Assembly: GCF_014874095.1 (NCBI RefSeq)
Contig: NZ_JADBEB010000001.1
Location: 3,472,001 to 3,536,000 of the forward strand
Direction: 5' to 3'
Length of the DNA: 64,000 nt
DNA from: Plantactinospora soyae
Lineage (GTDB): Bacteria; Actinomycetota; Actinomycetes; Mycobacteriales; Micromonosporaceae
The position numbers and the translations under genes are program-made. The stretch's first letter is position 1; every line of letters starts with the position of its first letter. This document shows, one piece after another, positions 17,222 through 54,541 of the stretch. A model generated the notes under the pieces. The model saw nothing but the letters and a program-made list of their open reading frames with translations. It did no database searches and was not told the DNA's origin.

Positions 17222-17297
17222 GCGCCGCTAGCTCAACTGGCAGAGCAGCGGACTCTTAATCCGCGGGTTCGGGGTTCGAGTCCCTGGCGGCGCACCA
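17222..17297 (+). tRNA. tRNA-Lys (anticodon CTT) with encoded CCA; insertion site of the island
   Basis: Acceptor GCGCCGC (17222-17228) pairs with GCGGCGC (17287-17293), the discriminator is A17294, and CCA is encoded at 17295-17297. The anticodon loop ACTCTTAAT reads CTT. The T-arm is GGTTCGAGTCC. The 3' 45 nt recur exactly at 54497-54541, so this complete copy is the functional gene reconstituted by an integrated element. Confidence 0.95.
17253..17297 (+). repeat. attL: left 45-bp direct repeat (3' end of tRNA-Lys)
   Basis: The segment from the anticodon to CCA is identical, base for base, to 54497-54541, and the match stops sharply on both sides (A versus G before it, C versus A after it). 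This is the classic signature of tyrosine-integrase insertion into a tRNA 3' end. Confidence 0.9.
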
Positions 17298-21943: not shown

Positions 21944-22823
21944 CGCGTCGTCGGTATCGAGGGGTGGGTCGTCGGGGTGCGTAGACGCCGCCGATGCTGA
22001 AAGATTGCGGTCTTGCCGCTTGGTTGCCCACGTAGAAGGCGACGTCGCGGTCGGCGGAGCAGAGTTGGGTGAGGAACTTGTGTTTCAGCTGATCGGCAGC
22101 CTCCGCGTCGGTGAGCTGGCTCAGACGACGTTGTAGGGCGACGAACTCCCAGTCCCAGAGCGTCTGCTGGTGACCGCGGCAACGGCGGTCTGCGCATCGG
22201 TAGCGGTAGGCGCCGGTGAATCGCGGTGCCTGAAGAGGGCTGCGCTTGGACGGCTCCAGTAGGTCGAGCTGGTGGAGGTAGCCGGCTATCTTCTTGCGAT
22301 CCTCCACCGACCAGCCGGGATGGCGCTTGACCTGTAAGGCCGAGATGTCGGCGACGCGAACCAGTGCGATCGATCGTGCGCTCGGGTCGTCGCGGGTCTG
22401 CTCGTTGAGCCGGCACATGGAGTCTTCGACGAGTGGATCGAGAAGATTTCGGCGTGACTGCTGGTTGGTCAGGTGCTGCTCGGTGGTGATGCTATCCACG
22501 ATCGGCTTCCAGCTCTCGCGACGCTGGTCCTGCCTGGCCGGCAGCGCATCGAGGTGGACGATGTCGTACTTGCGGAACTTGCTCTCGTCGGCCAGATCCC
22601 GAAAGTGGATCGGGTAGAGCCGAATCCAGCCGGTCCAGGGCGTGTCCAGGCCGAGCGCGCCGACGCAGACTGTCTCCCCGTAGCGGGCCGAGGGATTGGG
22701 GGCCGCCTTCACGGTGATCAAAAGGCGGAGTGTCGCTGGTCGTGTCAGTACTGGCTTCGATGGCGGATTCTCATCCGCGCCCGGTCCCCACAACGGAAGT
22801 TGTCCCAACGGAACCACCAACAT
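21933..22823 (-). CDS. Hypothetical protein with Cys/His motif
   Basis: About 296 aa, not assigned by me to a named family. The N-terminal half has LLITVKAAPNPSARYGETVC and an aromatic stretch TPWTGWIRLYPIHFRDLAD; the C-terminal half has YRYRCADRRCRGHQQTLWDW, a C-x4-C-x2-H pattern that could bind a metal. Similar proteins occur, in my memory, as lone genes in actinobacterial islands. I use ATG 22823 (an AGGAAG lies 12 nt upstream); GTG 22847 is the alternative. Tail-to-tail with the DUF4326 gene. Confidence 0.6.
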   Translation of the reverse strand: MLVVPLGQLPLWGPGADENPPSKPVLTRPATLRLLITVKAAPNPSARYGETVCVGALGLDTPWTGWIRLYPIHFRDLADESKFRKYDIVHLDALPARQDQRRESWKPIVDSITTEQHLTNQQSRRNLLDPLVEDSMCRLNEQTRDDPSARSIALVRVADISALQVKRHPGWSVEDRKKIAGYLHQLDLLEPSKRSPLQAPRFTGAYRYRCADRRCRGHQQTLWDWEFVALQRRLSQLTDAEAADQLKHKFLTQLCSADRDVAFYVGNQAARPQSFSIGGVYAPRRPTPRYRRRVNR

Positions 22824-22924
22824 CGCTGAATGTGGCTTCCTGTGCACTTCTCGTTACATAGATAGCTTCGCATCTAAATCGATGAGGCGCTAGCCATCGG
22901 AGGCGACCTAGCTATTGCCTGAGT

Positions 22925-23710
22925 TCATCTGAGGGTTGTGGTTACCGAAGCTGTCAGGGCATCAAGGGGCGCGCAGTGTTCCAGGAGCTCGCGGTCGGGT
23001 GCGCTGAGCTGGCCGTATCCGTCGAGGAAGCTGCCGCGTAGGTCGGGGCGGAGAGGCCAGATGCGGGTGGCGAGGCGTACGAGGTCACGGGCGGGCAGGT
23101 CGTAGCGGCTGTGCTCGAAGTCGATCAGGCGAACAATGCCGTCGTCTCCGTAGATCATGTTGCGGGGCATGAAGTCGAGGTGGCACGGCACGGTCGGCAG
23201 CGGGGCGAGGTCCTGGAGGGCTCGCATGTGGGCGCGTACCTCGGCCCGGTAGCTGGGCGTGACGCGGTCTCCGGCTTGGTGGATCCAGTACTCGGCGCGT
23301 TCGGCGAGCCAGGCTGTCCAGTCCGGCTCCAGCCTCGGCGGTCCGGCTGCGTGGAGCGTCTTGAGCAGCCGTCCTGCCTGGCGGTAGGTGTCCTGCTCGG
23401 CCTCGAGGGAGAGTCTTAGCTGGCTGAGCGGGACACCGGGCACGGCGGTGATGACAATCGCGGGCGGCTCGTCGGTTGTCGCGAGTAGGCGGGGCGCCCG
23501 GTCACCGAGGGCCAGGACCCAGGTCCGGTAGGCGTGCTCCTCCTGCGCGTGCCGTTCATGGCTGCGGTGTGGTTTGACGATCACCTCCCTGTGCGCGGCG
23601 GTTGAGGCGCGTAGTACCTGGGTGCCCGCGTGGCCCGGGTGCCAGGCCACCGGTACGGCGTCGGTGTCGAGAAGACGCCGGCAGAGTTGAAGGAGATCGT
23701 TGCTGGTCAT
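22925..23710 (-). CDS. APH-family phosphotransferase (operon gene 9)
   Basis: Kinase of the aminoglycoside/choline/homoserine kinase superfamily. The catalytic loop HLDFMPRN (H-x-D-x4-N) and the metal motif LIDFEHSRYD are intact, and an ATP-site Lys is seen in REVIVKPH. The 261-aa length is usual. The substrate cannot be deduced; in this operon a nucleoside, sugar or amino alcohol intermediate, or self-resistance by phosphorylation, are all possible. ATG 23710 overlaps the end of the histidine phosphatase gene (ATGA type), so it is the last gene of the leftward operon. Confidence 0.85.
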   Translation of the reverse strand: MTSNDLLQLCRRLLDTDAVPVAWHPGHAGTQVLRASTAAHREVIVKPHRSHERHAQEEHAYRTWVLALGDRAPRLLATTDEPPAIVITAVPGVPLSQLRLSLEAEQDTYRQAGRLLKTLHAAGPPRLEPDWTAWLAERAEYWIHQAGDRVTPSYRAEVRAHMRALQDLAPLPTVPCHLDFMPRNMIYGDDGIVRLIDFEHSRYDLPARDLVRLATRIWPLRPDLRGSFLDGYGQLSAPDRELLEHCAPLDALTASVTTTLR

Positions 23711-24357
23711 CGCTCAGGTTGGAGGTGTCGGGTGTCGTTGTGGGCGGCGAGTTGCCAGATGGTGCGGCCGAACCGGTTGGTTGGTCGCTGCCATCGGGTC
23801 ACCGAGGCGTGATCGGTGACGAATCCGAGCCGCAGGCAGGTGTTTTGGGGGAGTGCAAGGAGGAGATTGTTGGCCGCCTCGATGGTCTCGCCATGGGCGG
23901 CGATGAGGATCCGTTCACCGTCGTGCCGGGCGAGGATCTTCTGCAGGGCTTTGGTCGCCCGCGCGAGGTACTGGTTCCACGTCTCCGAGCCGTTGGCGTA
24001 CGGGATATCCGGAGCGTGTTGGGGTGGACCTTGAAAGGCGGTCTTGACGTCCGCCCACGGTTGGCCGTCGGCGTCGCCGTGGTCAGGCCCGCGAAGTTCC
24101 GGCTCGACGTCGGGTGGCAGTTGGAGGGCCTGCCTGATGATCTCGGCAGTCTGGACTACCCGGAGTCGAGGCGTGGAGTAGAAGATTGCGTACGGTCGAG
24201 CTGTGTGCTCGACGGCCAGCCGGGCAGCGAGCCGGGTGACCTGGTGGCGACCCCGGTCGGTCAGTCCGGTGCAGCCGTGTTCGCCGCCGACGATTCCGGT
24301 GACGTTGCAGGCGGCCTCGCCGTGACGGGCGATGACGAGTTCGGTGGTTGGGGTCAT
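23707..24357 (-). CDS. Histidine phosphatase family protein (operon gene 8)
   Basis: Phosphoglycerate-mutase-like phosphatase, 216 aa. The phospho-accepting motif RHGE is near the N-terminus (LVIARHGEAACN), followed by the family segments GLTDRGRHQV and FYSTPRLRVVQTAEII, and the second catalytic His in IAAHGETIEAANN. ATG 24357 has AAGGAG 9 nt upstream and removes an unconvincing extension. It probably removes a phosphate from a pathway intermediate, for example a nucleoside monophosphate or sugar phosphate; this is inferred from neighbours. Confidence 0.87.
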   Translation of the reverse strand: MTPTTELVIARHGEAACNVTGIVGGEHGCTGLTDRGRHQVTRLAARLAVEHTARPYAIFYSTPRLRVVQTAEIIRQALQLPPDVEPELRGPDHGDADGQPWADVKTAFQGPPQHAPDIPYANGSETWNQYLARATKALQKILARHDGERILIAAHGETIEAANNLLLALPQNTCLRLGFVTDHASVTRWQRPTNRFGRTIWQLAAHNDTRHLQPER

Positions 24358-24380
24358 CGGCAGGGCTCCTTCGGGGACGG

Positions 24381-25118
24381 TCAGGTTGACGCGAACGGGT
24401 CGGGCCAGGGCCGGACGGTGGGCCACGGGTGCTGGTATCCGTTGGCGCCGAGGTATCGAAGCGTCAAGAGGTGGTGCAGTTCGGCGTACTGCCGCAGCTC
24501 ATTCAGCTCACAAACGTTGGGCACGATCGCAACCCGGTAAGCCTCGACGCAGTCCGTGAGGATCCGCTCGTCGAGCCGGCCGTACGTCATCGAAGCGGTG
24601 ACGAGCAGTCCGGCCAAGTCGTAGCCGAACGGGGCGAGGGTGAGGTCGTCGAAGTCGACGACGGCGACGTTCTCTCCCTCGACGAGGTAGTTGCGGACGT
24701 TCGGGTCCTTGTAGAAGGCCGCCGGCCGGCAAGGCCGGTCCAGGACAGCGTCGAGTGCGGCCAAGTCGACGCAGGTGACACGGGCGGCACGGTGCAGCGC
24801 CTCCCGACGGGGGCCGGCGAAGTCGGGAAGCACCAGCCCGGTCGACGTGGTGTGAGGTTGGTCGAGGCACGCGGAGTGCAGTTCCCTCCGGTACGCAGCG
24901 TCGTGCAGCCGGCCGAGTGTGGACGCCACACGGGGCAGGTCAGCTACCTCGGGTGTCCGGCCCGGTAGCCGTTCGAAGACCAGATGTCGACTTGCCCGCG
25001 TGATCAGGTGCGGGAGGCGGACCTCGGACTTCAGCCCGGTGAGCCAGTCGTGGTGGGCCGCCGCTGCCGAGCAGCGCCGCACGTCGTCGTACCGCTTGAT
25101 GAAGAGGTTGCTGCTCAT
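24381..25118 (-). CDS. APH-fold kinase with altered catalytic loop (operon gene 7)
   Basis: Phosphotransferase of the APH fold, 245 aa. The metal motif VAVVDFDDL is clear. The catalytic loop reads FYKDPNVRNYLV: the Asp and the Asn four residues apart are kept, but the usual His two residues before the Asp is Tyr. The nucleotide lobe is short, with FIKRYDD and HLVFERLPG. It may be a divergent small-molecule kinase. ATG 25118 overlaps the methyltransferase stop (ATGA). Having two APH-fold enzymes in one operon suggests two phosphorylation steps or one biosynthetic plus one protective kinase. Confidence 0.75.
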   Translation of the reverse strand: MSSNLFIKRYDDVRRCSAAAAHHDWLTGLKSEVRLPHLITRASRHLVFERLPGRTPEVADLPRVASTLGRLHDAAYRRELHSACLDQPHTTSTGLVLPDFAGPRREALHRAARVTCVDLAALDAVLDRPCRPAAFYKDPNVRNYLVEGENVAVVDFDDLTLAPFGYDLAGLLVTASMTYGRLDERILTDCVEAYRVAIVPNVCELNELRQYAELHHLLTLRYLGANGYQHPWPTVRPWPDPFAST

Positions 25119-25930
25119 AGCCGCGCCGCCAGGGCGTAGCTGACGGTGGACTGGGTCAGATAGGGCGGCGCCGGCAACCGCTCCCGGAGGATCGTGGCGA
25201 GGTCGGCCGGTCCGTCGGCCGGGCGAATCCGGTACTTCGGGGTCGTGGCGAGGTATCGGGCGAGCTGCGTGACCCCGGCGAATTCGAAGACGTGTTGCTC
25301 GTGCAAGACGTCGAGCACGGCGAGGTGGCTGGCGGCGATGTCGAGCAGGTTGCCGCTGTGGAAGCTTCCGTAAAGGCTCGGGCGGCGGGCTGCGTCGGGG
25401 TCGAGGTCCGCGGCTTGGACGAGTTGGTCGAGCTCGGCGTAGCTGTCCAGCGACTTGGTCACCAGGACGGCAACACCCCCGGGACGGAGGCAACGGGCGA
25501 TCTCCGCGACTGCGGCGGCCGGTGTCGGCGAGTGGTAGAGGCAGAACGCGGCTACCGCCGCGTCGGCCACCGCACGGAGCAACGGCAGGTGGTGAAAGTC
25601 GGCGCAGATCACCGAGCCGACCGCTCCGGCCTCGGCCAACCGGGCACGGACGGTGTCCAGCAGCGCGGCCGAGGCGTCAACAGCGATGAGGCGTCGAGGG
25701 CGGAGACGGGCGGCGATGCGGAGCGTGCTGGTACCCCGTCCGCAGCCGATGTCGAGCACCACGGCACCGGGCAAGGTCCGCCGGGCGAGCAGGTCGGCGA
25801 TGACCTCAGCGACGTCTCGTCCGGCGACCTTGGCTTCGCGCAGCGCACGGGTGCGTTCCGCCAGCCGTTCGCCGGTTCGGTAGAGGTCGCCGTGGACCAG
25901 AGCGGAGTCGAGGAACGGGTTAGCCGACAC
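25115..25930 (-). CDS. Class I SAM-dependent methyltransferase (operon gene 6)
   Basis: Methyltransferase, 271 aa. Motif I VLDIGCGRGTST (about residues 57-68), the acidic ribose-binding residue in RLIAVDAS, motif IV AVAAFCLYHSP and the post-motif RCLRPGGVAVLV define the Methyltransf_11/25 type. The N-terminal 50 residues (FLDSALVHGDLYRTGERLAERT) and a C-terminal domain likely bind the acceptor, which is unknown. It follows the P-loop kinase by 24 bp and overlaps the next kinase. Confidence 0.87.
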   Translation of the reverse strand: MSANPFLDSALVHGDLYRTGERLAERTRALREAKVAGRDVAEVIADLLARRTLPGAVVLDIGCGRGTSTLRIAARLRPRRLIAVDASAALLDTVRARLAEAGAVGSVICADFHHLPLLRAVADAAVAAFCLYHSPTPAAAVAEIARCLRPGGVAVLVTKSLDSYAELDQLVQAADLDPDAARRPSLYGSFHSGNLLDIAASHLAVLDVLHEQHVFEFAGVTQLARYLATTPKYRIRPADGPADLATILRERLPAPPYLTQSTVSYALAARL

Positions 25931-25954
25931 CGGTCGCCTCCCGTCCCGCCCGGG

Positions 25955-26476
25955 TCAGGTCATCGGCTGGGCCTGTCGCCGTAGTCGGTCGACCAACTGG
26001 TTGGCTTGCCGGCGGCTGGTTAGTGAGATCAGCCGGACGTGCGGCCCGTGTTCCCGCATGAGGTCCTGGACCCGGGGTCGCATAGTACGTCGGTAGTCGA
26101 GGATGTACCGGACAAAGTTCCAGGTGATCCGGTCGTAGACTCCGTCGGCTTGATGCTGGCCGCCCCGGTAGCGCCGGCGTCGCTGGGCGATGCCCCAGAG
26201 GCATGTGGCGGCGGGAAGGTCGAGAAAGATCACGGTGTCGGCGGCGGCCAGCCGTATCGGCAGGGTGCCGGCGTAGTTGCCTTCGATGATCCACCGCTCG
26301 CCTGCGACGAGTTTCTCCTGCTTGGCGGCGAACTCGTCCTGAGACAGCGGGTTCCACTGCTCGTCGTAGTAGGTCGCGTCGAGGTGGGTCAGAGGCGCGT
26401 CGAGGATCTGGGCGAGTTGCCGGGCGACCGTCGACTTGCCGCTGCCGCCGCAGCCGATGATGGCGATCCTGTCCAT
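25955..26476 (-). CDS. Small P-loop kinase, adenylate-kinase/FlaR-like (operon gene 5)
   Basis: Nucleotide-kinase-like protein of 173 aa. Walker A is GCGGSGKST at the N-terminus, followed by HLDATYYDEQW (acceptor-binding region of topology-modulation/FlaR-type proteins), WIIEGNYAGT, and a lid with RRRRYRGG. The Walker-B-like strand is TVIFLDLPAA. In this setting a (deoxy)nucleoside monophosphate kinase acting on a modified CMP is plausible; that is inference. ATG 26476 gives the standard N-terminus (MDRIAIIG); the longer frame adds nothing recognisable. Confidence 0.8.
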   Translation of the reverse strand: MDRIAIIGCGGSGKSTVARQLAQILDAPLTHLDATYYDEQWNPLSQDEFAAKQEKLVAGERWIIEGNYAGTLPIRLAAADTVIFLDLPAATCLWGIAQRRRRYRGGQHQADGVYDRITWNFVRYILDYRRTMRPRVQDLMREHGPHVRLISLTSRRQANQLVDRLRRQAQPMT

Positions 26477-26527
26477 GGTCCTCCAGAGTAGGGGCGGTGC
26501 GGGGCGAGGTTGGGCGGACACGGCGGG

Positions 26528-27574
26528 TCATGATGGCACCGGATCCGGATGGCGCAGGAGACGATCGAGCACGCTGAGCTGGGTGGTGAGCCGGAACGGG
26601 CCGAGGCGCCGTAGGCAGTCGGCGATCAGGTCGGCGTGGTCGCTGGTTGCAACGATCTCGGCGAGCCAGCCGACCCGGTCCCGGACGTCGGTGGCCTGCC
26701 TGGCGTGCAGGCTCACCGGTACGAGTTCGGCGGCGCCGCGGACGCTGGTGGGCAGGAGCGGCACGCAGCCGGCGAGGACCGCTTCGAAGATCCGTTGAGT
26801 GACCTGGCCGGCCTGGGCATAGCGCTCCGGAAGCAGCAGCACGGTGGCGAGCGCATCGGCGTGGATCTCGGCGACCTGGGGGAATGAGACCCGGCCGATG
26901 AAGTTGAGGCCGGGCCAGCGGCGGGTATCGGTCCACTTGCCGGCGATCAGGTGCGGCAGGTGCATGGCGGCGGGGGCGAAGAAGGTGTCGAAGGCGTCGT
27001 CGCGGTCGTACTGGTTGCCGACGTAGACCAGCGGCATCGAGCGACGCTGGCCAGCGAGTTTGTCGGGGTCGGTAGCGTCGAGGATCGTGTCGGCGATGGG
27101 GAAGAGCAGCGTCGTCGCGCCGGGGCTCGGGCGCAGGGCCGGTTCGCAGACGGTGACGTTGCTGCTCTGTCGGAGCGGGTCGGCCGGGTCGAGCCGCCGG
27201 TCCTTGTCCCAAAGGATCGTCGGGGTGCCGAGCCGGTGGGTGTAGTGGGTGACGAGTTCGGCCTGTCGGTGTAGGTCGCAGGTGTGTCCGGGCCGGCCGC
27301 AGGGGGTGGTGTTGCGGCCGGGGATGGGCCAGCGCCATTCGAGGAACAACGCGTCGAGGTCGGGCATCCCGGCGTCCCACCGGTAGCTGCTGCTGAGGTC
27401 GAGACCGGCGTCGCAGAGGTCGCGGTTGGGCTGGAGGAACACGATGTCGTGTCCGGCCTGGCGTAGCCCGTCGACCAGGGGGCTGCGGTGGCTGCGTCCG
27501 CCGTCGGGGGTGTCGACGACGCCGGGGCCGAGGAATCCCCAGAAGCTGTACCCGATCAGCACTTCGTCACCCAC
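26528..27574 (-). CDS. GT-B-like glycosyltransferase (operon gene 4)
   Basis: Predicted glycosyltransferase of 348 aa. The C-terminal half carries the nucleotide-sugar-binding pattern of the GT4-like Glycos_transf_1_2 group: FPQVAEIHADALATVLLLPE, then TQRIFEAVLAGCVPLLP with the conserved Glu. The N-terminal half starts VLIGYSFWGFLGPGV, contains HRSPLVDGLRQAGHDI, and has two cysteines in TPCGRPGHTCDLH. The GTG 27574 start overlaps the carbamoyltransferase end by 19 bp and follows GAGGG. The frame extends far upstream, but that part is shadow of the carbamoyltransferase. Confidence 0.75.
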   Translation of the reverse strand: MGDEVLIGYSFWGFLGPGVVDTPDGGRSHRSPLVDGLRQAGHDIVFLQPNRDLCDAGLDLSSSYRWDAGMPDLDALFLEWRWPIPGRNTTPCGRPGHTCDLHRQAELVTHYTHRLGTPTILWDKDRRLDPADPLRQSSNVTVCEPALRPSPGATTLLFPIADTILDATDPDKLAGQRRSMPLVYVGNQYDRDDAFDTFFAPAAMHLPHLIAGKWTDTRRWPGLNFIGRVSFPQVAEIHADALATVLLLPERYAQAGQVTQRIFEAVLAGCVPLLPTSVRGAAELVPVSLHARQATDVRDRVGWLAEIVATSDHADLIADCLRRLGPFRLTTQLSVLDRLLRHPDPVPS

Positions 27575-29292
27575 CAGCCCTCGATAAGCAGGGCGTCCAG
27601 GCCGGTCTCGAGGAGGCAATCGAGGGCCATGTCCGGGGTACCGCAGATCGGTCTGCCTTTGATGTTCAACGAAGTGTTGATCAGCACCGGATGTCCGGTG
27701 ATCTCGCCGAACGCGGACAGCACGCTCGCGAGAAACGGGTGCTGCGTGCGGGTCACGGTCTGGACCCGCGCGGTGCCGTTGCCGTGCACAATCGCGGGCA
27801 GGTGGGTCCGGGTCAGCTCGGTGACCGGCGCGGCGATGGACATGAACGGCGAGGACTGGCGGAGCCGGACGTAGTCGGCAGCCTTGTCTGCGAGGATCAC
27901 CGGGGCGAACGGACGGAAGGGTTCGCGGAACTTCACTGTGCCGTTCAGTCGATCCACGACCTCGTTTGCGAAGGGCGAGGCGAGGATGGACCGGTTGCCC
28001 AGCGCGCGTGGCCCGGCCTCCAGCCGGCCGGTAAAGAGTCCGACGATCACTCCGTCGGCGAGCTGCCGAGCGAGGTGCTGGACCGGGTCGGCCGGACGTT
28101 CGGCGACAAGACCAGGCCGTGGTTGGCCCGACAGAGCCAGATCGGGGTACGCCGGGCCGAGGTAGCAGTGCCCGCCGATGCCGGTGGGTGGGCAACGGGT
28201 TGCCTCGAGCCAGGCGGCTGCGGCGGCCCCGATCGCGGTACCGGCGTCTCCCGGCGCGGGTGGGATGTGGACCTCGTCGACGATGCCGGCCCGGGCGACC
28301 TGCCCGGCAGCGACGCAATTCATCGCGACGCCGCCGCCGAGACACAGCAGACCGGAGCCGGTCAGGCGGGCGGCTCGCCTGGCCAGGTGCAGCATCACCT
28401 GCTCGGTGCGTTCCTGTAGGGCGGCGGCGAGGTCGGCGTGCACCGGTTCGACCGGCGCGTCCGGTGGGCGAGGCGAGCAGGTGGCGGAGGTGAACACCGG
28501 GCTCGTCCGGCGGTACCGGCTGGACAGGACCCGAAGCGGCAACAACCCAGGATTGAGGGCGAAGCCGTCCGTGGTCAGCGGGATCGCGCGGGACATCAGG
28601 TCACCGAAGCGTGCGGGTTCGCCGAGGGCGGCCAGCGCCATGACGGTGCCCTCCTCATCGCCGCGACGCCAGCCGAGGTGTTCGGTCACGGCGCCGTACG
28701 CGTAGCCGAGCGACGCCGGGTCCTTGACGGCAGCGGCCAGGCGGAGGTGAAGAGTCTGCTCGTCGCGGTGCGCGGCGTGCCAGATCGTGGTGGTTTGCAG
28801 CTCGCCGAGACTGTCCACGACCAGGACCGCCGCGTCGTCCACGCCAGCGGACAGGAAGGCGTAGAGGGCGTGTGCGCGGTGGTGCAGCACGGGGACGAGC
28901 CGGGCGAGCGGGAAGCGTCGCGCCAGGTCCCGCATGCGCGCCTGGTAGCGGCGGTGCACGGTGAGGAAACTGCGTGAGCGGGCGACCGCTCGGCTGCGGG
29001 TCGCGGCTCGGGCCAGGTGCGCGGGAAACTGGCCGAGTGCTGGCAGGTAGCGGCGGCCGTCGAAGTTGTACGCGACCGTCGTCACCTCGTTCGCGGTCAA
29101 CCCGGCCTCGTCGAGGAGCCAGGCGACGGCCTTGGTGGGGTACGCCTTGCTGTGCTTGACCCCGTCGAGGCGTTCCTCTTCGGCGAAGCCGATCAGGTGG
29201 CCGTTGACCAGGAGCGCGGCGGCGGAGTCGTGCGTGTAGGCGCAGAGCCCGAGTACCACCTCGGCGCCTCGTGCGGATCGTCGCGCGATCAT
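27556..29292 (-). CDS. NodU/CmcH-type O-carbamoyltransferase (operon gene 3)
   Basis: Transfers a carbamoyl group from carbamoyl phosphate, via carbamoyl-AMP, to a hydroxyl. The 578-aa protein shows the family order: an ASKHA N-terminal domain (VVLGLCAYTHDSAAALL, then HHRAHALYAF and DDAAVLVVDSLGE), GGGVAMNCVA, and the C-terminal YrdC-like part with RLEAGPRALGNRSILASP, FKFREPFRPFAP-like sequence and the ending GRPICGTPDMALDCLLETGLD. Known substrates include antibiotic scaffolds, sugars and 5-hydroxymethyl-cytosine. Start ATG 29292 overlaps the end of the thymidylate-synthase-like gene by 4 bp, which argues that the two act in sequence. Confidence 0.92.
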   Translation of the reverse strand: MIARRSARGAEVVLGLCAYTHDSAAALLVNGHLIGFAEEERLDGVKHSKAYPTKAVAWLLDEAGLTANEVTTVAYNFDGRRYLPALGQFPAHLARAATRSRAVARSRSFLTVHRRYQARMRDLARRFPLARLVPVLHHRAHALYAFLSAGVDDAAVLVVDSLGELQTTTIWHAAHRDEQTLHLRLAAAVKDPASLGYAYGAVTEHLGWRRGDEEGTVMALAALGEPARFGDLMSRAIPLTTDGFALNPGLLPLRVLSSRYRRTSPVFTSATCSPRPPDAPVEPVHADLAAALQERTEQVMLHLARRAARLTGSGLLCLGGGVAMNCVAAGQVARAGIVDEVHIPPAPGDAGTAIGAAAAAWLEATRCPPTGIGGHCYLGPAYPDLALSGQPRPGLVAERPADPVQHLARQLADGVIVGLFTGRLEAGPRALGNRSILASPFANEVVDRLNGTVKFREPFRPFAPVILADKAADYVRLRQSSPFMSIAAPVTELTRTHLPAIVHGNGTARVQTVTRTQHPFLASVLSAFGEITGHPVLINTSLNIKGRPICGTPDMALDCLLETGLDALLIEGWWVTKC

Positions 29293-30236
29293 CGCGGGTC
29301 CCCGACCGTGGTTGAGGTGAGGTGGTCGTACCAGCTCGACAGGGCGGCACCGAGCGGATCGGGGGTGTCGGCGGCGAGCTTGCGTGCCTGGTCGCGCTCA
29401 CTCGACTTCCAGGCACGGTAGCTGGCGAGCGTCCGGCCGAACGCGTCCCAGGTCGGGCCGTCGCCAGAGCCGGTGTTGCCGGAAATCACGCGCTGGAGGA
29501 GAACATCGAGATCCGGCCAGGGCACGGCGATCGGGTCCAGTTCCGCCGTGCCTACGGTGCCGTGCAGGGAGGCGGTGGCTGCCTGCGAGTTGTCGGCGTA
29601 CAGGTGTAGGGAGTCGACGTGATGGTGGTACTCGCCCAACTCGACGCCGAGCCAGCCGGCCATCAACTCCTGAATCAGGGTGGTGGTGAAGATGTCGTAC
29701 GGGAAGCCGAGCCACAGGTCCTGGCTACGCATGCTGGTGTGCATGATCAATCGGCCGTCCCGGATGAAGAACCGGTAGCCGAGGGTGCACGGCACGTCGC
29801 GGTAGCCGCGATGGTCCCGGGACGGGTCGTAGAGCTGGATCACCCCGCGCCGCGACTCCGGGTCCTCGTGCAGTTGCCGTCGTACCGCGTCGAGCTGGTC
29901 GAGCCGGCCGTCCCACCGGCGCAGCCGTGGCCCGTACGCGCCGCGTAGCACGCCGTCGTCGGCGTAAGCCCGCAACCTGTCGTTGTAGTCGAAGATCCAT
30001 GGGGAGTCGGAGCCGGAGAGGATCCAGAGTGCCTCCGCGACCGCGAAGGCGGGATTGATCACCCGGACAGGCGGTACGTCGACAAACCGCCGCCGAGGGT
30101 TGGTCAGGCACAGGTGTGCGCCGATCACCTCGGTCGTGGTCAGGTCGCGGGGGCATGCGGTCCGGCCGTTGAGGAGTACGGCCTGGCAGGCGGCGGTGAA
30201 CAACTCACTCGCCGAGCCGGCGGTTAACACGATCAT
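29289..30236 (-). CDS. Thymidylate-synthase-fold enzyme, predicted (d)CMP hydroxymethylase (operon gene 2)
   Basis: The 315-aa protein has the ThyA fold: Glu68 in EALWILSG, GAYGPRLRRW, the phosphate arginines in ESRRGV, catalytic Cys150 in DVPCTLGYRF, Arg170-Ser171 in MRSQD and His211/Tyr213 in DSLHLY. Where thymidylate synthases have the conserved Asn that selects dUMP (Asn177 in E. coli, GLPFN), this protein has Asp181 in LGFPYD. Asp here is the hallmark of T4 dCMP hydroxymethylase and CMP hydroxymethylase MilA, which add hydroxymethyl to C5 of cytosine. The PCH motif is PCT, also unlike housekeeping ThyA. I predict 5-hydroxymethyl-(d)CMP formation; ribo versus deoxy cannot be decided. Start ATG 30236, 21 bp after the epimerase. 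Confidence 0.82.
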   Translation of the reverse strand: MIVLTAGSASELFTAACQAVLLNGRTACPRDLTTTEVIGAHLCLTNPRRRFVDVPPVRVINPAFAVAEALWILSGSDSPWIFDYNDRLRAYADDGVLRGAYGPRLRRWDGRLDQLDAVRRQLHEDPESRRGVIQLYDPSRDHRGYRDVPCTLGYRFFIRDGRLIMHTSMRSQDLWLGFPYDIFTTTLIQELMAGWLGVELGEYHHHVDSLHLYADNSQAATASLHGTVGTAELDPIAVPWPDLDVLLQRVISGNTGSGDGPTWDAFGRTLASYRAWKSSERDQARKLAADTPDPLGAALSSWYDHLTSTTVGDPR

Positions 30237-30257
30237 GGGCAGGCTCCTTCGCGGAGG

Positions 30258-31229
30258 TCAGGAGGTGAAGGCGGCGAGTCGGTCGCGGGAGAGGTTGACC
30301 AGCCAGGTGGCCTGGCGGGCGAGGCCCTCGCGGAGCGCCACGGTGGGCCAGTAGCCGAGCAACCGGCCGGCGCGGGTCAGGTCGGCTGCGGTCCCGGGTA
30401 CGTCGCCCGGTTGGACGGTCACGACCTTCACCGGCACTTGGCGGCCGGTGACCTTGGTCGCCTCGTCGATCACCGCGAGCATCGACACACTCGCGCCACC
30501 GCCGACGTTGACCACCACCGCCTGGGCGTCGAGGTGTCCGGCGGCGAGGGTCGCGGAGACGACATCGCTGACGAAGGTGAACTCGCGACGTTGGCTGCCG
30601 TCCCCGAACAGGGTGACCGGAAAGCCGGTGTAGGCAGCAAACAGGATTCGGCCGATCGCCATGTCGGGTCGCTGCCGGGGCCCGTACACGGTGAAGTAGC
30701 GCAACGCGACGACGCTGAGCGGGCTGTCGGCTCGTCGGGCGTAGGCGAGACAGAGTTGCTCGGCGGCGAGCTTGCTCACCCCGTACGGGGAGACCGGGCA
30801 GGTCGGGTCGTCCTCGCGGCTGGACCGGTCAGCCGGGCCGTAGACGCTCGACGACGAGGCTACGACCAGCCGGCGTACGCCCCGGCGGGTGCAGGCATCG
30901 ATCAGTCGGTGGGTGCCGAGGACGTTCGCCTGGGTGTAGTCGACGAACTCGCGACCCCATGATGACCGGACGCCAGGCCGAGCGGCGAGGTGGAAGACGG
31001 TGTCACAGCCAGCCACTGCCTCGTCGAGCTGGTCGGTCGCCAGGTCCAGGCAGTACGGCGTGAACAGCGGACTGACGGTGGCCCTCGCCAGGTTCTCGTT
31101 CGCGAGGGCGTGCTCGCCGAGCCGGCGACGATCCAGGCCGACGACCCTGATTCCTCTGGCCAGGAGGGCGTCGACCAGATGCGAGCCGATGAACCCGGCC
31201 GCGCCCGTCACCAGCACCTGAGCCATCAT
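30258..31229 (-). CDS. NAD-dependent sugar epimerase/dehydratase (operon gene 1)
   Basis: Extended short-chain dehydrogenase of the nucleotide-sugar epimerase type, 323 aa. The Rossmann motif is GAAGFIG at the N-terminus, the catalytic YxxxK is YGVSK with upstream ASSSSVYG, and the sugar-binding segment RYFTVYGPRQRPDMAI resembles UDP-glucuronate or UDP-glucose 4-epimerases. It likely supplies an NDP-sugar to the operon's glycosyltransferase. First gene of the leftward operon; the start is ATG 31229 or the adjacent ATG 31226. Its promoter must lie in the 31230-31631 divergent region. Confidence 0.9.
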   Translation of the reverse strand: MMAQVLVTGAAGFIGSHLVDALLARGIRVVGLDRRRLGEHALANENLARATVSPLFTPYCLDLATDQLDEAVAGCDTVFHLAARPGVRSSWGREFVDYTQANVLGTHRLIDACTRRGVRRLVVASSSSVYGPADRSSREDDPTCPVSPYGVSKLAAEQLCLAYARRADSPLSVVALRYFTVYGPRQRPDMAIGRILFAAYTGFPVTLFGDGSQRREFTFVSDVVSATLAAGHLDAQAVVVNVGGGASVSMLAVIDEATKVTGRQVPVKVVTVQPGDVPGTAADLTRAGRLLGYWPTVALREGLARQATWLVNLSRDRLAAFTS

Positions 31230-31631: not shown

Positions 31632-32195
31632 ATGAGTACCCAGGCTCGACGGGCAAGTGAGTGGACCATCCACGGCGAACGGGTGGTCGACGACACCAGA
31701 CGCGCCGTCCTCGGCATCGCCGACGTCGAGTTGCCCAACGGCGTCCGGTTCGAGCAGTACGTACTCCGGGTACCGCCCGCCGCCATGGTCGTCGTCCTCG
31801 ACGACGATGAACGCGTACTCATGATGTGGCGGCACCGGTTCGTCATCGACCGGTGGGTCTGGGAACTCCCCGGCGGCTACCTCGACCCGGACGAGGATCC
31901 GGCTACGTGCGCGGCCCGAGAGGTCGAGGAGGAGACCGGCTGGCGACCGCGAACGATGGAGCCGGTTCTCGGGTTCCAGCCGATGGTCGGCACCATCGAC
32001 CAGCAGAACCTGGTCTTCCTGTCCCGGGGCGCCGAGTCCACCGGCGCGGCACCCGACGTCAACGAGACCGAGCGGCTCGGGTGGATCCCGCTGACCGAGG
32101 TGGAACAACGCATCCACACGGGGGAGATCGTCGGCTCGGGGTCGGTCGCCGGCCTGCTCGCCGTCCTGCTTGCCAAGGCGAACGGACGTCTCTGA
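31632..32195 (+). CDS. NUDIX hydrolase, ADP-ribose pyrophosphatase type
   Basis: Hydrolase of nucleoside diphosphates linked to another moiety, 187 aa. The Nudix box is complete: GGYLDPDEDPATCAAREVEEETG (G-x5-E-x7-R-E-V-x-E-E-x-G), following WVWELPGG as in ADP-ribose/NDP-sugar hydrolases. It is divergent from the operon and ends directly against the XRE gene, stop codon to stop codon. It may clear NDP-sugar or modified nucleotide by-products. ATG 31632 has AGGG about 8 nt upstream. Confidence 0.92.
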   Translation: MSTQARRASEWTIHGERVVDDTRRAVLGIADVELPNGVRFEQYVLRVPPAAMVVVLDDDERVLMMWRHRFVIDRWVWELPGGYLDPDEDPATCAAREVEEETGWRPRTMEPVLGFQPMVGTIDQQNLVFLSRGAESTGAAPDVNETERLGWIPLTEVEQRIHTGEIVGSGSVAGLLAVLLAKANGRL

Positions 32196-33572
32196 CTAGA
32201 CAGGCTGAAGAACCGGTCGCACCCGTTCAGAGAACGCCCGCACCTCAGGCAGTCCGACGTGCGGCGCAAGCCGAGCCGCGAGGGCCGCGAGATAGTCGCG
32301 CGACCGGACCGACCCAAGTCCTTCAGCCGCCTCGACGGCCTGTACTCCCACCGAACCGGCCTGCTCGATCTCCCCGGACTGGGCATGGGCGACGGCCAAC
32401 AGGGCGAAATTGAACTGCCGCCCTCGTGCAAACTTGCGACCATCCATCTGCAGCGACCGCTTTGCGAACCGCGTGGCAAGTTCACCACGGCCGAGCGCGG
32501 AGAAGCAGTGCCCGAACTTCGCCGCCAGGTACGACTCGTCGAAGTAGCCGATCCACTGCGGAGCGCTGGTGCGGTCCGCACGGTCGAAGGCGCGTTCGGC
32601 CCGGTCAAGCGCGTCCGCGCAGGCCGCCTCGTCACCCCCGACGGCATGGCCCTGCGCCTCTAGGACAGCGGACTCGGCTTGGATGGCACCCACGCCGGCT
32701 TCGGCAGCGGTGCGCCCTGCGGCACGAGCTAGATCGACCGCTTCCGCCGAGGCGCCCAGGTAGGCCGCCTGATGGCTCATCGCCGCGAGGATCTCCGCGC
32801 CAAACGGTTGGTCGCCGGCTGCCGCGGCCAGTCGCAACGCCTGGACCAGGTACCGCTGCGCCAAGCCATGCATGCCGACGTCGTAACATGCCCAACCGGC
32901 GAGTTGGGTAGCTTCCGCTGCGGCGGAGAAAAGGGCGGCACCGGTGCGGGCGTCGTACCGGCCCTGCAGCATGGGGGCGACGTCGGCGTTGAGGAAGCGG
33001 ACCAGCCCGTCACGAACGTGCGCACCGCCGTACTGGTTGTCCAGGGTTCGGTAGACGTTCGTGATCTGTCGGACCGTCTCGACGTTCGGCGCGCCCACGA
33101 GACGATCCCCGTCCCCGGCCGGTCGTTCATCAAGCCGTGTGGTCAACCACCGCAGCGCCGGAGTGAGGAACAGCGCCGCGCTGAAACCCGTACCCACCAG
33201 CAGATCTCGCCGTTGCATGTCTTCCCGCCAGAGCTTCGTCGCGACCACCACGCCATGTCGCCAGTCCGGCGCGAACTCTAGCCCGGTGCCCGGTACACCA
33301 ACCTGCTCGGCAGACGGTGCGAGCCGTCCGCCGCTGTCGGCTGACACCGTCCGGACAAGGGCGGACAGTTGCCCACCAGCGTCCAACGCGGCGTCGAGCA
33401 AGGTCACCACGGACAGGCTTGGCCGTTTGCCGCCGGCCTCGAGGTCCCATAGGTATCCATGTGAACAGTGGACTTGCTGCCCGAGCCGGCGAAGCGAAAG
33501 CCCTCGCCGCTCGCGTAGCTCCTTCAGTCGTTGCCCGAAGGTCGGGTCGACGGCGACGATCTGTCGCGGCAT
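32196..33572 (-). CDS. XRE-family regulator with helical-repeat domain
   Basis: DNA-binding regulator, 458 aa. The N-terminal helix-turn-helix (FGQRLKELRERRGLSLRRLG to LWDLEAGGKRPS, about residues 12-50) is of the Cro/C1 type. The remaining 390 residues are helical and TPR-like, with repeated Ala/Leu-rich pairs such as AAEATQLAGWACYDVG and AEAVDLARAAGRTA. This layout is common in actinobacterial XRE regulators beside biosynthetic operons. Its stop abuts the NUDIX stop. It is a candidate regulator of the adjacent operon; the ligand is unknown. Confidence 0.85.
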   Translation of the reverse strand: MPRQIVAVDPTFGQRLKELRERRGLSLRRLGQQVHCSHGYLWDLEAGGKRPSLSVVTLLDAALDAGGQLSALVRTVSADSGGRLAPSAEQVGVPGTGLEFAPDWRHGVVVATKLWREDMQRRDLLVGTGFSAALFLTPALRWLTTRLDERPAGDGDRLVGAPNVETVRQITNVYRTLDNQYGGAHVRDGLVRFLNADVAPMLQGRYDARTGAALFSAAAEATQLAGWACYDVGMHGLAQRYLVQALRLAAAAGDQPFGAEILAAMSHQAAYLGASAEAVDLARAAGRTAAEAGVGAIQAESAVLEAQGHAVGGDEAACADALDRAERAFDRADRTSAPQWIGYFDESYLAAKFGHCFSALGRGELATRFAKRSLQMDGRKFARGRQFNFALLAVAHAQSGEIEQAGSVGVQAVEAAEGLGSVRSRDYLAALAARLAPHVGLPEVRAFSERVRPVLQPV

Positions 33573-35061: not shown

Positions 35062-35946
35062 ATGGATGATCCTGTTCTGCGGGTCCAGTCGCAGATGACC
35101 GCCCGTGATCGGGTGTTGCTGGGCTGGCTCTACGACCACGGGGTGCTGACCTCGTTCCAGATCGCGCATGCCCTGTTTCCGTCCCTTGATTTCTGTCAGC
35201 GCCGGTTGCGGACGTTGTACCGGTTGCGGTTGGTGGGGCGGTTCCGGCCGCAGCGCGCCGACGGTGGCTCGTACCCATATCACTACGTCATCGATCAGCT
35301 CGGCGCGGAGGTCGTGGCCGCTGGCCGTGATGAGCGGCCACCCCGGCGTGATCACGCCCGGGTGGAACGGCGCCGCTGGACGTCGAGCCGCGCCCTGGAG
35401 CACCGGCTCGGCGTGAACGGCTTCTTTGCCGACCTCGCCGGCTACGCCCGCACCCACCCCGAGGCCCGCCTGGGGGAGTGGTTGTCGGAGTCGGCGTGCC
35501 AACGCTCGGGGATGTTCACCCGGCCGGAGGATCCGGGTCTGGTACGCGCGTATCAGCCCCGGGTACGCCCCGACGGCTACGGCCTGTGGCTCGTACGAGG
35601 TGTCGAGGTGCCGATCTTCGTGGAGTTCGACACCGGTGGTGAGCAGTTGTCGGTGCTGACCCGCAAATTGGTCGGCTACCGGGAGTTGTTCGTCAGGCTG
35701 GGGCGGGCGTGGCCGGTGCTGTTCTGGCTGCACTCCGCCGCCCGGGAACGCAACCTGCGCCTGCTGCTGGCCGAGATGCCGCCGCTGGTGCCGGTCGCCA
35801 CCGGAGCCCGCGACCACGCCACCACAGCGGGCCTGTGCCCCGCTGAGGCGGTGTGGGCGGTGGCCGGCGGCGACGGACAACGACTGACGCTCGCCGACCT
35901 GACGGTCGTCGACGACCGTGACCGGGCAGGGGAGGTAGCGGCGTGA
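35062..35946 (+). CDS. Replication-relaxation family protein
   Basis: Winged-helix-type protein of the Replic_Relax family found on actinobacterial plasmids and integrative elements, 294 aa. The N-terminus (MTARDRVLLGWLYDHGVLTS, FQIAHALFPS, RRLRTLYRLRLVGRF) forms a winged helix, and the middle has RRWTSSRALEHRLGVNGFF, a family hallmark. GGAGAGGAGG lies upstream of ATG 35062. A piece of a homologous gene survives outside the island at 54841-54945. It is followed by a spacer with repeats and then by DUF2637, xis and int. Confidence 0.85.
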   Translation: MDDPVLRVQSQMTARDRVLLGWLYDHGVLTSFQIAHALFPSLDFCQRRLRTLYRLRLVGRFRPQRADGGSYPYHYVIDQLGAEVVAAGRDERPPRRDHARVERRRWTSSRALEHRLGVNGFFADLAGYARTHPEARLGEWLSESACQRSGMFTRPEDPGLVRAYQPRVRPDGYGLWLVRGVEVPIFVEFDTGGEQLSVLTRKLVGYRELFVRLGRAWPVLFWLHSAARERNLRLLLAEMPPLVPVATGARDHATTAGLCPAEAVWAVAGGDGQRLTLADLTVVDDRDRAGEVAA

Positions 35947-37209: not shown

Positions 37210-37604
37210 GCGCCAACACGACCTCAACCCAAGACACCCAATTGACCAGCGCACACCCCGCGACCAGTACTCCGTGGACCGCCGAGCGGATCCGCGCGCT
37301 CGGCGCCGCCACCACACTGCCCACCGCCGCAGCCGTACTCGGCATCAGCCGATCCCAGGCCTACCGACTGGCGGCCACCGACACTTTCCCCACACCGGTG
37401 ATCCGGGCCGGCACCCGCATCATCGTTCCGGTCGCCGGACTCCTGCGACTCCTCCTGCTCGACAGCGCCACCCCGACCCCCGACGACGGCCGACGACTTG
37501 ACCCGGTCGCGGTGCTGAGCGTGGATGCAACGACCCCGTCACCAGCGGACTACAACCGTCACCGCTGGCGGCACCACGCCGAGCATCCAGGAGGCGATGA
37601 ATGA
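37206..37604 (+). CDS. xis: Excisionase-like helix-turn-helix protein
   Basis: Directionality factor candidate, 132 aa. The central helix-turn-helix TLPTAAAVLGISRSQAYRLA with the wing TFPTPVIRAGTRIIVPVAGL is the MerR-type excisionase fold seen in actinobacterial integrative elements. The start overlaps the DUF2637 stop, and its own stop overlaps the integrase start by 4 bp, so the three are one transcription unit. Confidence 0.8.
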   Translation: MSANTTSTQDTQLTSAHPATSTPWTAERIRALGAATTLPTAAAVLGISRSQAYRLAATDTFPTPVIRAGTRIIVPVAGLLRLLLLDSATPTPDDGRRLDPVAVLSVDATTPSPADYNRHRWRHHAEHPGGDE

Positions 37605-39076
37605 AGGGATCTACCTTCAAACGCTGTGGATGCCGCGACACCACCACGGGCCGACGACTGGGACGCTCCTGTCCCCAACTTCGCCGGTCCGGCGGCGGCT
37701 GGTCACGCAACCACGGCCAATGGCACTGGCAGATCGAAGTACCGGCCCGAGCCGACGGCACCCGCCGCCCGCTCCGCCACGGCCCCTACACCAATCAGAC
37801 CGACGCCGACGCCGTCCTGGACCAAATCCGGGCCGCGCTCGCCGTCCCCGATCCCACCGACCCCCACGTCACCGTCAAGACCGGCGACCTCATCGAAACC
37901 GCCGTCAAGACCGGCGCGCCCATCCCCACCCCGGACCAGATCCGACGAGCGCTGCACCTGGACATCACCCCGACCGAACTGCCGACGATGTCCGTCTACC
38001 TCACCGAGTGGCTCGCCGGGCGAAAGAACATCAAGAAGGGAACGCTGCGCTCGTACGAGGGCCACGTCCGGCTGTACCTGATCCCGTACCTCGGCCACCT
38101 GCGCATCGACCGGCTCCGCCCCGGCCACATCGACGCCATGCACGACGCCATCGACGAACGTAACACCACCATCGGCATCCTTCGCGCCAGCCGCGACCAG
38201 ACCAAGCGCGACCAGGTCAAGAACCAGCGCATCGTCGGCCCAGCAACCCAACACCGCATCCACGCCACCCTGCGCAAGGCCCTCAACGACGCGATGCGCC
38301 GCCACCGACTCATCGACACCAACCCAGCCCTGATGGTCGAACTACCCCCGGCCCGGCCACCGAAGCCGACCATCTGGACCGACCAACGCGTCAAGACCTG
38401 GCGCGACACCGGCAAGACCCCCAGCCCCGTCATGATCTGGACCCCCGAACACACCGGCAGATTCCTCGACCACACCCACGACGCCAACGACCGGCTCTAC
38501 GCCCTCTACCACCTCATCACCTTCACTGGCCTACGCCGAGGCGAAGCCTGCGGCCTGCACTGGGACGACCTCGACCTCGACGCCCACACCCTCACCGTCC
38601 GCTGGCAACTCGTCCAACACGGCTGGGCCACCGCCATCGACACCCCCAAAACCACCGACAGCGAAGCCGCGGTCGCTCTCGACACCGAAACCGTCGCAGT
38701 ACTGCGCGCCCACCGCACCCGCCAAAACCGCGAACGCCTCGCGGCCGGTGCGGCCTGGACCCCCACCGGGCTCGTGTTCACCACCCCGACCGGTGGTCGG
38801 CTCCACCCTGCCGACGTCACCGACCACTTCCACCACCTCGCCATCCAAGCCGGACTACCACCCATCCGACTCCACGACCTTCGGCACGGCGCCGCCACCA
38901 TGGGCCTTGCCGCCGGCGTCCAGATGAAGGTCATCTCCAGCCGGCTCCGCCACTCCAGCCCACACTTCACCGCCAAGTTCTACGGCGACGTCCTACCCGA
39001 GCTCTCCCACGCCGCCGCCGAGGTGACAGCGGCTGTGGTGCCTCGACGGCGGGGTGGCGGAGCGAAATCGGCATAG
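37601..39076 (+). CDS. int: Tyrosine-type site-specific integrase
   Basis: Recombinase of 491 aa. The N-terminus GSTFKRCGC and an Arg/Cys-rich arm-binding region are typical of actinobacterial element integrases. The core-binding domain begins near YLTEWLAGRKNIKKGTLRSY. The catalytic residues are the Arg in TGLRRGEACGLHW (about 312), the His and Arg in HDLRHGAATMGL (about 425-428), a His in RLRHSSPHF and the Tyr in FYGDVLPEL (about 460). It could catalyse insertion into the tRNA-Lys 3' end, but it lies 15 kb from the right repeat, unlike the usual att-adjacent position, so the match of this integrase to those repeats is not certain. Confidence 0.93.
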   Translation: MKGSTFKRCGCRDTTTGRRLGRSCPQLRRSGGGWSRNHGQWHWQIEVPARADGTRRPLRHGPYTNQTDADAVLDQIRAALAVPDPTDPHVTVKTGDLIETAVKTGAPIPTPDQIRRALHLDITPTELPTMSVYLTEWLAGRKNIKKGTLRSYEGHVRLYLIPYLGHLRIDRLRPGHIDAMHDAIDERNTTIGILRASRDQTKRDQVKNQRIVGPATQHRIHATLRKALNDAMRRHRLIDTNPALMVELPPARPPKPTIWTDQRVKTWRDTGKTPSPVMIWTPEHTGRFLDHTHDANDRLYALYHLITFTGLRRGEACGLHWDDLDLDAHTLTVRWQLVQHGWATAIDTPKTTDSEAAVALDTETVAVLRAHRTRQNRERLAAGAAWTPTGLVFTTPTGGRLHPADVTDHFHHLAIQAGLPPIRLHDLRHGAATMGLAAGVQMKVISSRLRHSSPHFTAKFYGDVLPELSHAAAEVTAAVVPRRRGGGAKSA

Positions 39077-46178: not shown

Positions 46179-46179
46179 G

Positions 46180-54496: not shown

Positions 54497-54541
54497 CTCT
54501 TAATCCGCGGGTTCGGGGTTCGAGTCCCTGGCGGCGCACCA
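54497..54541 (+). repeat. attR: right 45-bp direct repeat (3' end of tRNA-Lys only)
   Basis: Identical to 17253-17297. The 5' half of the tRNA is absent upstream, where the sequence is unrelated, so this is a displaced 3' end and not a second tRNA gene. Confidence 0.9.

Follow-up and report, generated by a model that had tools for sequence, protein, structure and literature searches.

The nine-gene locus at positions 22925-31229 of a 64-kb stretch of Plantactinospora soyae DNA (the window, that is, the whole stretch analyzed) raises the question of which product would call for a thymidylate synthase (TS)-fold enzyme, a glycosyltransferase, and a carbamoyltransferase encoded side by side. Nine leftward genes were confirmed there; in 5' to 3' order they encode a sugar epimerase (EPI), the TS-fold enzyme (TS), an O-carbamoyltransferase (CARB), a glycosyltransferase (GT), a P-loop nucleotide-kinase-like protein (KIN), a methyltransferase (MT), a kinase of the aminoglycoside phosphotransferase fold (APH1), a histidine phosphatase (HP), and a second such kinase (APH2). 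The reading to which we give slightly better than even credence is that its product is a small molecule, a 5-hydroxymethyl-2'-deoxycytidine nucleotide decorated with a sugar, made by means of a TS/GT pair of phage type.

Conservation of the Nine-gene Operon in Actinobacteria

The gene content, its conservation, the residue signatures, the homologies, and the boundaries of the surrounding element were observed directly. The genes are tightly packed, as an initial annotation of this DNA had described: the largest gap is 51 bp (GT-KIN), those at EPI-TS, KIN-MT, and APH1-HP are 21, 24, and 23 bp, and the remaining joints are overlaps (4 bp at TS-CARB, MT-APH1, and HP-APH2, and 7 bp at CARB-GT). 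Pfam matches above the curated cut-off were obtained for seven of the nine genes, with KIN and GT matching only below cut-offs. Genes were called by a simple codon-position score, and the unlabeled flanking genes are provisional.

When 397 genomes of the same order were searched with TS at a threshold of E 1e-30, 14 genomes matched, the own genome included. The operon was found in 7 of the 13 other TS-bearing loci (TS identity 55-90%), complete in five of them and lacking MT in two (L018 and L019). Because the same gene order recurs in these seven loci at 38-90% amino-acid identity, persisting at 38-67% in the most distant sampled operons, it is not due to chance, and the single operon proposed in the initial annotation is borne out.

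One genome per species, from 84,980 species, was then scanned with two GT peptide patterns, a scan that distant or GT-less operons escape. It yielded 70 loci, all actinobacterial to judge from record titles or tree labels, in 69 species-representative genomes (one genome has two loci). Within 10 kb of the GT gene, TS was present in 65 loci, CARB in 59, KIN in 58, EPI in 56, MT in 55, APH1 in 53, HP in 33, and APH2 in 32, counts that include several loci ending at contig ends. All three of TS, CARB, and GT are found in 56 of the 70 loci, and KIN is also present in 54 of these, so that the co-occurrence of TS and CARB in other genomes, on which the initial annotation had staked its model, is found both here and in the order sample. 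Three loci of the order sample (L016, L019, and L022) apparently duplicate the records L089, L091, and L111. The GT gene is rare, occurring in 2 of 396 phylum-sample genomes, again counting the own genome. MT, HP, and APH2 are accessory, being missing from some operons whose sequence is not truncated by the end of the contig.

Four architectures were distinguished. Type A has the gene order of the window (15 of 70 loci). In type B (14 loci, plus three shorter ones from which MT, HP, and APH2 are missing) EPI is relocated to the end, and additional genes for a cytidylyltransferase, a HAD phosphatase, and an SAHH-like protein are often present. Type C (14 loci) ends at APH1, in some cases because the contig ends there, and some members carry radical S-adenosylmethionine (SAM) or sulfotransferase genes. 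Type D retains only GT and TS of the nine genes (nine loci: L115, L117, L121, L125, L136-L139, and L145); CARB is absent, and several loci have NDK-like, DnaQ-type exonuclease, and radical-SAM-like genes nearby, the last (f15) being identified by eye and having no Pfam match. The other 15 loci fit none of these types, because of truncation, a missing gene, or some other peculiarity. L154 and L156 contain CARB-GT-KIN-MT operons with neither TS nor EPI in the available sequence, which may be degenerate, rearranged, or assembly artifacts.

A Predicted Deoxycytidylate-type Hydroxymethylase

The closest solved structure to TS in a comparison with the PDB was MilA, the hydroxymethylase of mildiomycin biosynthesis (E 5e-36), and the best thymidylate synthase scored E 3e-19. 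Lys133 and Ala176 of MilA favor ribose, the A176S/K133R exchange shifts the preference to dCMP, and Asp186 is a mark of cytosine-type enzymes (PMC5175136). The window TS has Arg129, Ser171, and Asp181 at the positions of MilA residues 133, 176, and 186, along with the catalytic Cys150, and is therefore without the Lys and Ala of the CMP hydroxymethylases MilA and BcmA. The same Arg/Ser/Asp letters are found in T4 gp42 and in the TS of the seven order-sample operons. Across the 70 GT loci, the cytosine-type Asp is kept in all 66 TS sequences; 47 of these show Arg/Ser/Asp, nine (type B) have Gly in place of Ser, nine (type D) have Lys/Gly, and one, the second TS of L157, has Ala in place of Ser. 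The operon group of the TS tree has a support of only 87/88 and a very long viral branch (L087) as its neighbor; the type B sequences with Gly make up a nested subclade (99/96), and the type D sequences join other Lys-type sequences (99/93).

These residues lead us to predict that the window TS makes 5-hydroxymethyl-dCMP from dCMP. The initial annotation had invoked TS-fold enzymes with Asp at the Asn177 position (E. coli TS numbering), which is indeed Asp181 here, and had proposed a 5-hydroxymethyl-cytidine core; the cytosine-type hydroxymethylase is upheld by Asp181, and the sugar has to be revised, since Arg129 and Ser171 predict 2'-deoxycytidylate rather than cytidine as the substrate. The host genome encodes ThyX, and TS is thus not needed for dTMP; with Asp181 in TS and ThyX in the host, a spare thymidylate synthase was rejected. 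One further short PF00303 match exists in the host genome, in a 215-residue frame (G000:C1:2161745).

The remaining 6 of the 13 TS loci of the order sample (L023-L028; TS identity 37-41%) contained no other operon gene at E 1e-8, and the notion that every MilA-like TS marks this operon was rejected on these grounds. A second, divergent TS-fold gene lies immediately upstream of the operon in L157 (4099) and L021 (12252-13322).

A Glycosyltransferase Probably Related to T4 DNA Beta-glucosyltransferase

The window GT had only a sub-threshold Pfam match (PF13524, 1.3e-3). PHROGs gave no match to the window GT or to either of two viral GTs, and none of 50,697 phage records matched the window GT or the one viral GT used as a second query. 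Relatives were present on viral contigs at 55 loci. A tree and a profile were built from 70 hand-picked GT sequences, those of the window, 29 of the 70 cellular loci, and 40 of the 55 viral loci, L115 being excluded for its reading frame. The only PDB match of this profile at E<=0.1 was T4 DNA beta-glucosyltransferase (beta-GT; 1bgt), with E 9e-9. Profile-profile comparison with eight beta-GT sequences by hhalign gave a probability of 97.4% for all 70 GTs and of 73.6% for the 30 cellular copies, compared with 1.9% and 0.1% for the TS and CARB controls. The alignment covers mainly the C-terminal donor half, where beta-GT Tyr261, Arg269, and Glu272 match conserved GT residues. Of the five beta-GT residues that we take to be UDP/donor contacts, Arg195, Tyr261, Arg269, and Glu272 align with GT Arg186, Tyr247, Arg256, and Glu259 (343-residue numbering), and Arg191 with Tyr184. 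These similarities suggest that GT is a distant relative of beta-GT, a link that depends on the viral relatives, since a profile of eight cellular sequences on their own gave no significant match.

Some of the viral contigs are near-identical, and they were therefore also counted with one vote per cluster at 70% identity (40 clusters). A TS gene lies within 8 kb of GT in 45 of the 55 viral loci (33 of 40 clusters) and a P-loop kinase gene, of a viral family resembling thymidylate kinase, in 47 (33 of 40 clusters); a dCMP-deaminase-like gene is present in 36 loci and an epimerase in 19. As a yardstick from a different collection, which permits only a rough comparison, any TS match occurred in 2216 of the 50,697 phage records. 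The dCMP signature was found in all 43 of the 45 viral TS sequences that could be read through the motif, the other two being truncated before its end. The 30 cellular GTs sampled cluster together in the GT tree (100/100), separate from the 40 viral sequences and with type D as a nested clade (100/97), a topology that, with a root placed by midpoint only, suggests that GT was perhaps captured from viruses once.

Several viral loci, L030, L031, and L043 among them, have P-loop kinase, beta-GT-like GT, and dCMP-type TS genes in a row, in some cases along with an epimerase gene, and are candidates for hitherto undescribed DNA glycosylation systems; such viral GTs could serve as new DNA glycosylation tools.

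Sugar Donor and Carbamoyl Acceptor

The best PDB match of EPI was MoeE5 of moenomycin biosynthesis (E 6e-77), followed by 6zl6 (E 7e-66), both of which we take to be UDP-glucuronate 4-epimerases. A UDP-glucose dehydrogenase homologue adjoins the operon in 6 of the 70 loci and also in L021 and L022 (confirmed with Pfam, L022 duplicating the record of one of the six). Two such homologues lie away from the operon in the window genome, one of them 42% identical, its matching part interrupted by a single in-frame stop, and the other 33% identical. The MoeE5-like EPI and the dehydrogenase neighbors suggest UDP-galacturonic acid as the sugar donor.

CARB has both Carbam_trans domains, and its best PDB matches were GdmN (E 3e-83) and the novobiocin carbamoyltransferase (E 1e-81); at the positions of TobZ W408, G421, and R423 it has Leu, Gly, and Arg by a hand-counted motif register. 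It matched 140 phage records at <60% identity, mostly cyanophages, and none of 18 pattern matches to the operon CARB in viral contigs was confirmed. The carbamoyl of moenomycin is carried on a sugar. GT and CARB cannot both act on the 5-hydroxymethyl group because only one oxygen is available, and the sugar is the likelier carbamoyl acceptor because the operon combines a beta-GT-like GT with a uronic-acid-type (MoeE5-like) epimerase. By this reasoning the carbamoyl probably sits on the sugar and not on the hydroxymethyl. The carbamoylation and glycosylation of a hydroxymethyl-cytosine core foreseen in the initial annotation are to this extent revised, and its interpretation as a whole is supported in part.

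The alternative nearest to the initial annotation is that CARB acts on the 5-hydroxymethyl itself to give a 5-carbamoyloxymethyl-dC nucleotide, the sugar being attached elsewhere or to other molecules; we regard it as doubtful, though it survives best among the alternatives. In the MetaGPA study, a phage NodU-type enzyme encoded on the same contig as a TS-fold gene carbamoylates 5-hydroxymethyl-2'-deoxycytidine (5hmdC) in single-stranded DNA and also acts on 5hmdCTP (about 60%) and, more weakly, on RNA (PMC8670742), so that direct carbamoylation of the hydroxymethyl group is possible, and the position of CARB immediately after TS, with overlapping ends, would suit it. This evidence must be set against the neighboring GT, whose family has a relative acting on the same hydroxymethyl, against the nine type D loci that retain GT and TS without CARB, and against the lack of any CARB homologue (E 1e-4) at the 55 viral loci with GT. 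Among solved structures, moreover, CARB is nearest to antibiotic carbamoyltransferases, in a comparison that did not contain the phage enzyme.

Proposed Pathway and Its Product

The chemical steps that follow, like the identity of the sugar, the place of the carbamoyl, and the use of the sugar-decorated nucleotide as a small molecule, are inferred from the sequences. TS would convert dCMP to 5-hydroxymethyl-dCMP; UDP-galacturonic acid would come from EPI acting together with a UDP-glucose dehydrogenase, whose gene adjoins the operon in some loci; GT would join the sugar to the hydroxymethyl oxygen; CARB would carbamoylate a sugar hydroxyl; and MT would methylate the product. KIN, which also matched PF02224 (E 1e-4, below cut-off) and whose sole PDB match was a cytidylate kinase (E 7e-4), would handle the nucleotide phosphate, and APH1, APH2, and HP would add or remove phosphate, for activation or self-protection. 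A nucleotide substrate is favored over DNA because the GT family adjoins the TS with Gly for Ser171 (nine loci) and the Lys/Gly MilA-like TS lineage (the nine type D loci). A small-molecule product is also supported by the tailoring genes, which vary as in secondary metabolism, relatives adding cytidylyltransferase, sulfotransferase, radical-SAM, or NDK genes, and by the small-molecule type of the kinases, the phosphatase, and the methyltransferase.

Several observations weigh against this pathway. The similarity to beta-GT covers mainly the donor-binding half, and Arg191 of beta-GT, a donor contact, is Tyr here; eight cellular GTs alone gave a non-significant E of 0.85 against the PDB, ranked below a chance match, and the 30 cellular copies reach only the hhalign value given above. 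At E 1e-4, the window KIN, CARB, MT, APH1, APH2, and HP are unmatched in the 55 viral loci, so that the viral loci and the window share only GT, TS, and, in 19 of 55, EPI, the viral P-loop kinases having been found with viral queries. The Gly at the ribose-selecting position 171 in nine type B loci may affect ribose preference there. TS is absent in 3 of the 59 CARB-bearing loci; the contig of L153 begins at CARB, but L154 and L156 have no TS in approximately 8 kb upstream at E 1e-2. No exporter is encoded among the nine genes, the flanks not having been systematically searched for one. Finally, the relatives of CARB use diverse acceptors, and the phage relative acts on 5-hydroxymethyl-dC (PMC8670742).

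A modification of DNA, in which the nucleotide is converted to the triphosphate, incorporated, and then glycosylated and carbamoylated in the polymer to protect the element or the host, appears improbable. The resemblance of TS, GT, and the nucleotide-kinase type to phage DNA-hypermodification sets and the location of the operon within an integrated element beside an Hma defense system are in its favor. Yet scans with Pfam and NF profiles assigned none of the nine to a polymerase, a DNA-binding family, or a known dCTP-removing family (the phosphatase is assigned as a histidine phosphatase by family only), the GT relatives paired with a Lys/Gly (MilA-like) TS would not serve DNA, and the genes for aminoglycoside-kinase-fold proteins, a phosphatase, and a small-molecule-type methyltransferase indicate metabolite chemistry. 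We therefore favor a small-molecule product well ahead of DNA modification.

In bacimethrin-type pathways the product of the TS-fold enzyme is cut back to the nucleoside or the free base. Were this the case here, the sugar genes would decorate another scaffold and GT would not be a hydroxymethyl-cytosine glycosyltransferase, to which we assign only a slight chance. TS-fold enzymes do supply other nucleoside and base natural products, as described for MilA and BcmA (PMC5175136), and the beta-GT homology is weak for the cellular copies alone; against this, no nucleosidase match was found among the nine genes in the same profile scans, and GT and TS are linked through types A, B, C, and D and many viral loci. 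Epimerase, glycosyltransferase, and carbamoyltransferase genes occur, as is generally known, in surface-sugar cassettes, which would speak for ordinary nucleotide or cell-surface sugar metabolism with a spare thymidylate synthase and an unrelated polysaccharide cassette, a reading that is hardly credible given Asp181 in every operon TS read, ThyX in the host, and a gene order kept across distant operons.

On a wider scale, the sugar-decorated nucleotide could be one of several. We tentatively raise the idea, which we consider rather unlikely as a whole, that a phage pair of dCMP hydroxymethylase and beta-GT-like GT was captured by Actinobacteria, GT perhaps once, and gave rise to pathways for phage-like hypermodified cytosine nucleotides, both deoxy and ribo, sometimes on mobile elements, that act as antimetabolites against phages or competitors.

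Comparison with Known Systems

In T4, as in the window, TS-fold and GT genes are adjacent (b-gt directly follows gene 42), TS has the Arg/Cys/Ser/Asp residues, and the GTs are homologous in the donor half; unlike T4, the bacterial operon adds CARB, EPI, MT, APH kinases, and HP, its GT is very divergent, and its acceptor is probably a small molecule. MilA (mildiomycin) and BcmA (bacimethrin) share the TS fold, the cytosine-type Asp, and a place in secondary metabolism, in contrast with their Lys and Ala at the ribose positions, where the window TS has Arg and Ser; the window hydroxymethylase is thus of the deoxy type and not the ribo type by which a mildiomycin-type cluster would be recognized. 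To our knowledge, the other operon genes do not occur in the MilA and BcmA pathways. The moenomycin sugar cassette likewise combines a UDP-glucuronate-type epimerase with an O-carbamoyltransferase and a methyltransferase, presumably MoeM5 and MoeK5, respectively, homology having been compared for MoeE5 only; it differs in its phosphoglycolipid scaffold, and we know of no TS-fold enzyme in it. The phage 5-hydroxymethylcytosine carbamoyltransferase of MetaGPA also pairs a NodU-type enzyme with a TS-fold gene, and Asp177 is present in most TS of the modified contigs; it differs in that no beta-GT-type partner appears in the part of its description available (PMC8670742), and in that the window CARB is nearest to antibiotic enzymes among solved structures.

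No description of this gene set was found in literature searches covering part of the matching papers and few subscription journals. If the proposed pathway is correct, the T4 DNA beta-glucosyltransferase superfamily would extend into cellular biosynthetic operons, an unexplored family of cytidine-based metabolites would be defined by a GT found in 69 species-representative genomes, and virus-type chemistry would have been re-used by bacteria.

Genomic Setting of the Operon

The coordinates of the operon genes and their surroundings are collected in Table 1. A 37-kb element bounded by a repeat of the tRNA-Lys gene encloses the operon together with an integrase, a replication-relaxation protein, and the Hma system, and relatives of the integrase or the replication-relaxation protein also lie near the operon in L018, L020, L092, L094, and L156. 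At least in this genome the operon is thus predicted to be mobile cargo, to judge from the boundaries and the integrase. An NsdA-like regulator is present within 10 kb in 25 of the 70 loci, and a homologue of the Nudix gene in 4 loci at E 1e-6 and 15 at E 1e-2.

Table 1. Operon genes and associated features in the window
Feature	Position	Strand	Evidence
EPI, NAD-dependent sugar epimerase, probable UDP-glucuronate 4-epimerase	30258..31229	-	PF01370 E 3e-57
TS, TS-fold, predicted dCMP 5-hydroxymethylase	29289..30236	-	PF00303 E 2e-25; R129, C150, S171, D181
CARB, NodU/CmcH-type O-carbamoyltransferase	27556..29292	-	PF02543 E 2e-37, PF16861 E 3e-60
GT, glycosyltransferase, putative distant T4 DNA beta-glucosyltransferase relative	26528..27562	-	family profile vs 1bgt; GTG start at 27562
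KIN, P-loop nucleotide-kinase-like, FlaR/cytidylate-kinase-like	25955..26476	-	NF005994 E 3e-46, below cut-off
MT, SAM-dependent methyltransferase, accessory	25115..25930	-	PF13649 E 6e-20
APH1, APH-fold kinase 1	24381..25118	-	PF01636 E 4e-11
HP, histidine phosphatase, accessory	23707..24357	-	PF00300 E 9e-33
APH2, APH-fold kinase 2, accessory	22925..23710	-	PF01636 E 4e-26
Left element end, 3' part of tRNA-Lys (CTT)	17253..17297	.	45-bp exact direct repeat; tRNA at 17222-17297
Right element end, second copy of tRNA-Lys 3' repeat	54497..54541	.	45-bp exact direct repeat
Phage-type integrase of element	37601..39076	+	PF00589 E 4e-17
Replication-relaxation protein of element	35062..35946	+	PF13814 E 7e-52
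HmaABC-like defense system in element	39940-49578	+	PADLOC HmaA/HmaB/HmaC 1315, 677, 922 bits
NsdA-family HTH/TPR regulator upstream, candidate operon regulator	32196..33572	-	NF053720 E 2e-103, above cut-off
Nudix hydrolase between operon and regulator, divergent, link to operon uncertain	31632..32195	+	PF00293 E 6e-21

Directly downstream of the operon lies a phage-defense-candidate gene, PDC-M19B (21933-22847, minus strand), of which an 85%-identical copy occupies the same place in L017 (16839-17753). Across the 70 loci it was unmatched at E 1e-6 over 80 residues and matched once at E 1e-2, and it was therefore excluded from the operon.

Three plasmids carry other TS-fold gene sets. In a Pantoea plasmid (L160, 8995-11968) and an Arthrobacter plasmid (L162, 7989-11011), genes for a TS-fold enzyme, an aGPT-PPlase3/ADDT protein (PF18746 E 2e-94 and 9e-87, respectively), and an ImmA/IrrE peptidase stand in the same order. 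The aGPT-PPlase3/ADDT-family proteins, 38% identical to each other, belong to a family named for phage thymine hypermodification, and the set is a possible plasmid-borne base-modification system. The Geobacillus plasmid pGeo12a (L159, 4195-16808) contains two TS-fold genes with genes for an APH kinase, QueA, two PqqD proteins, Nudix and CYTH proteins, and an ABC transporter, a cluster that looks like another nucleoside-type pathway.

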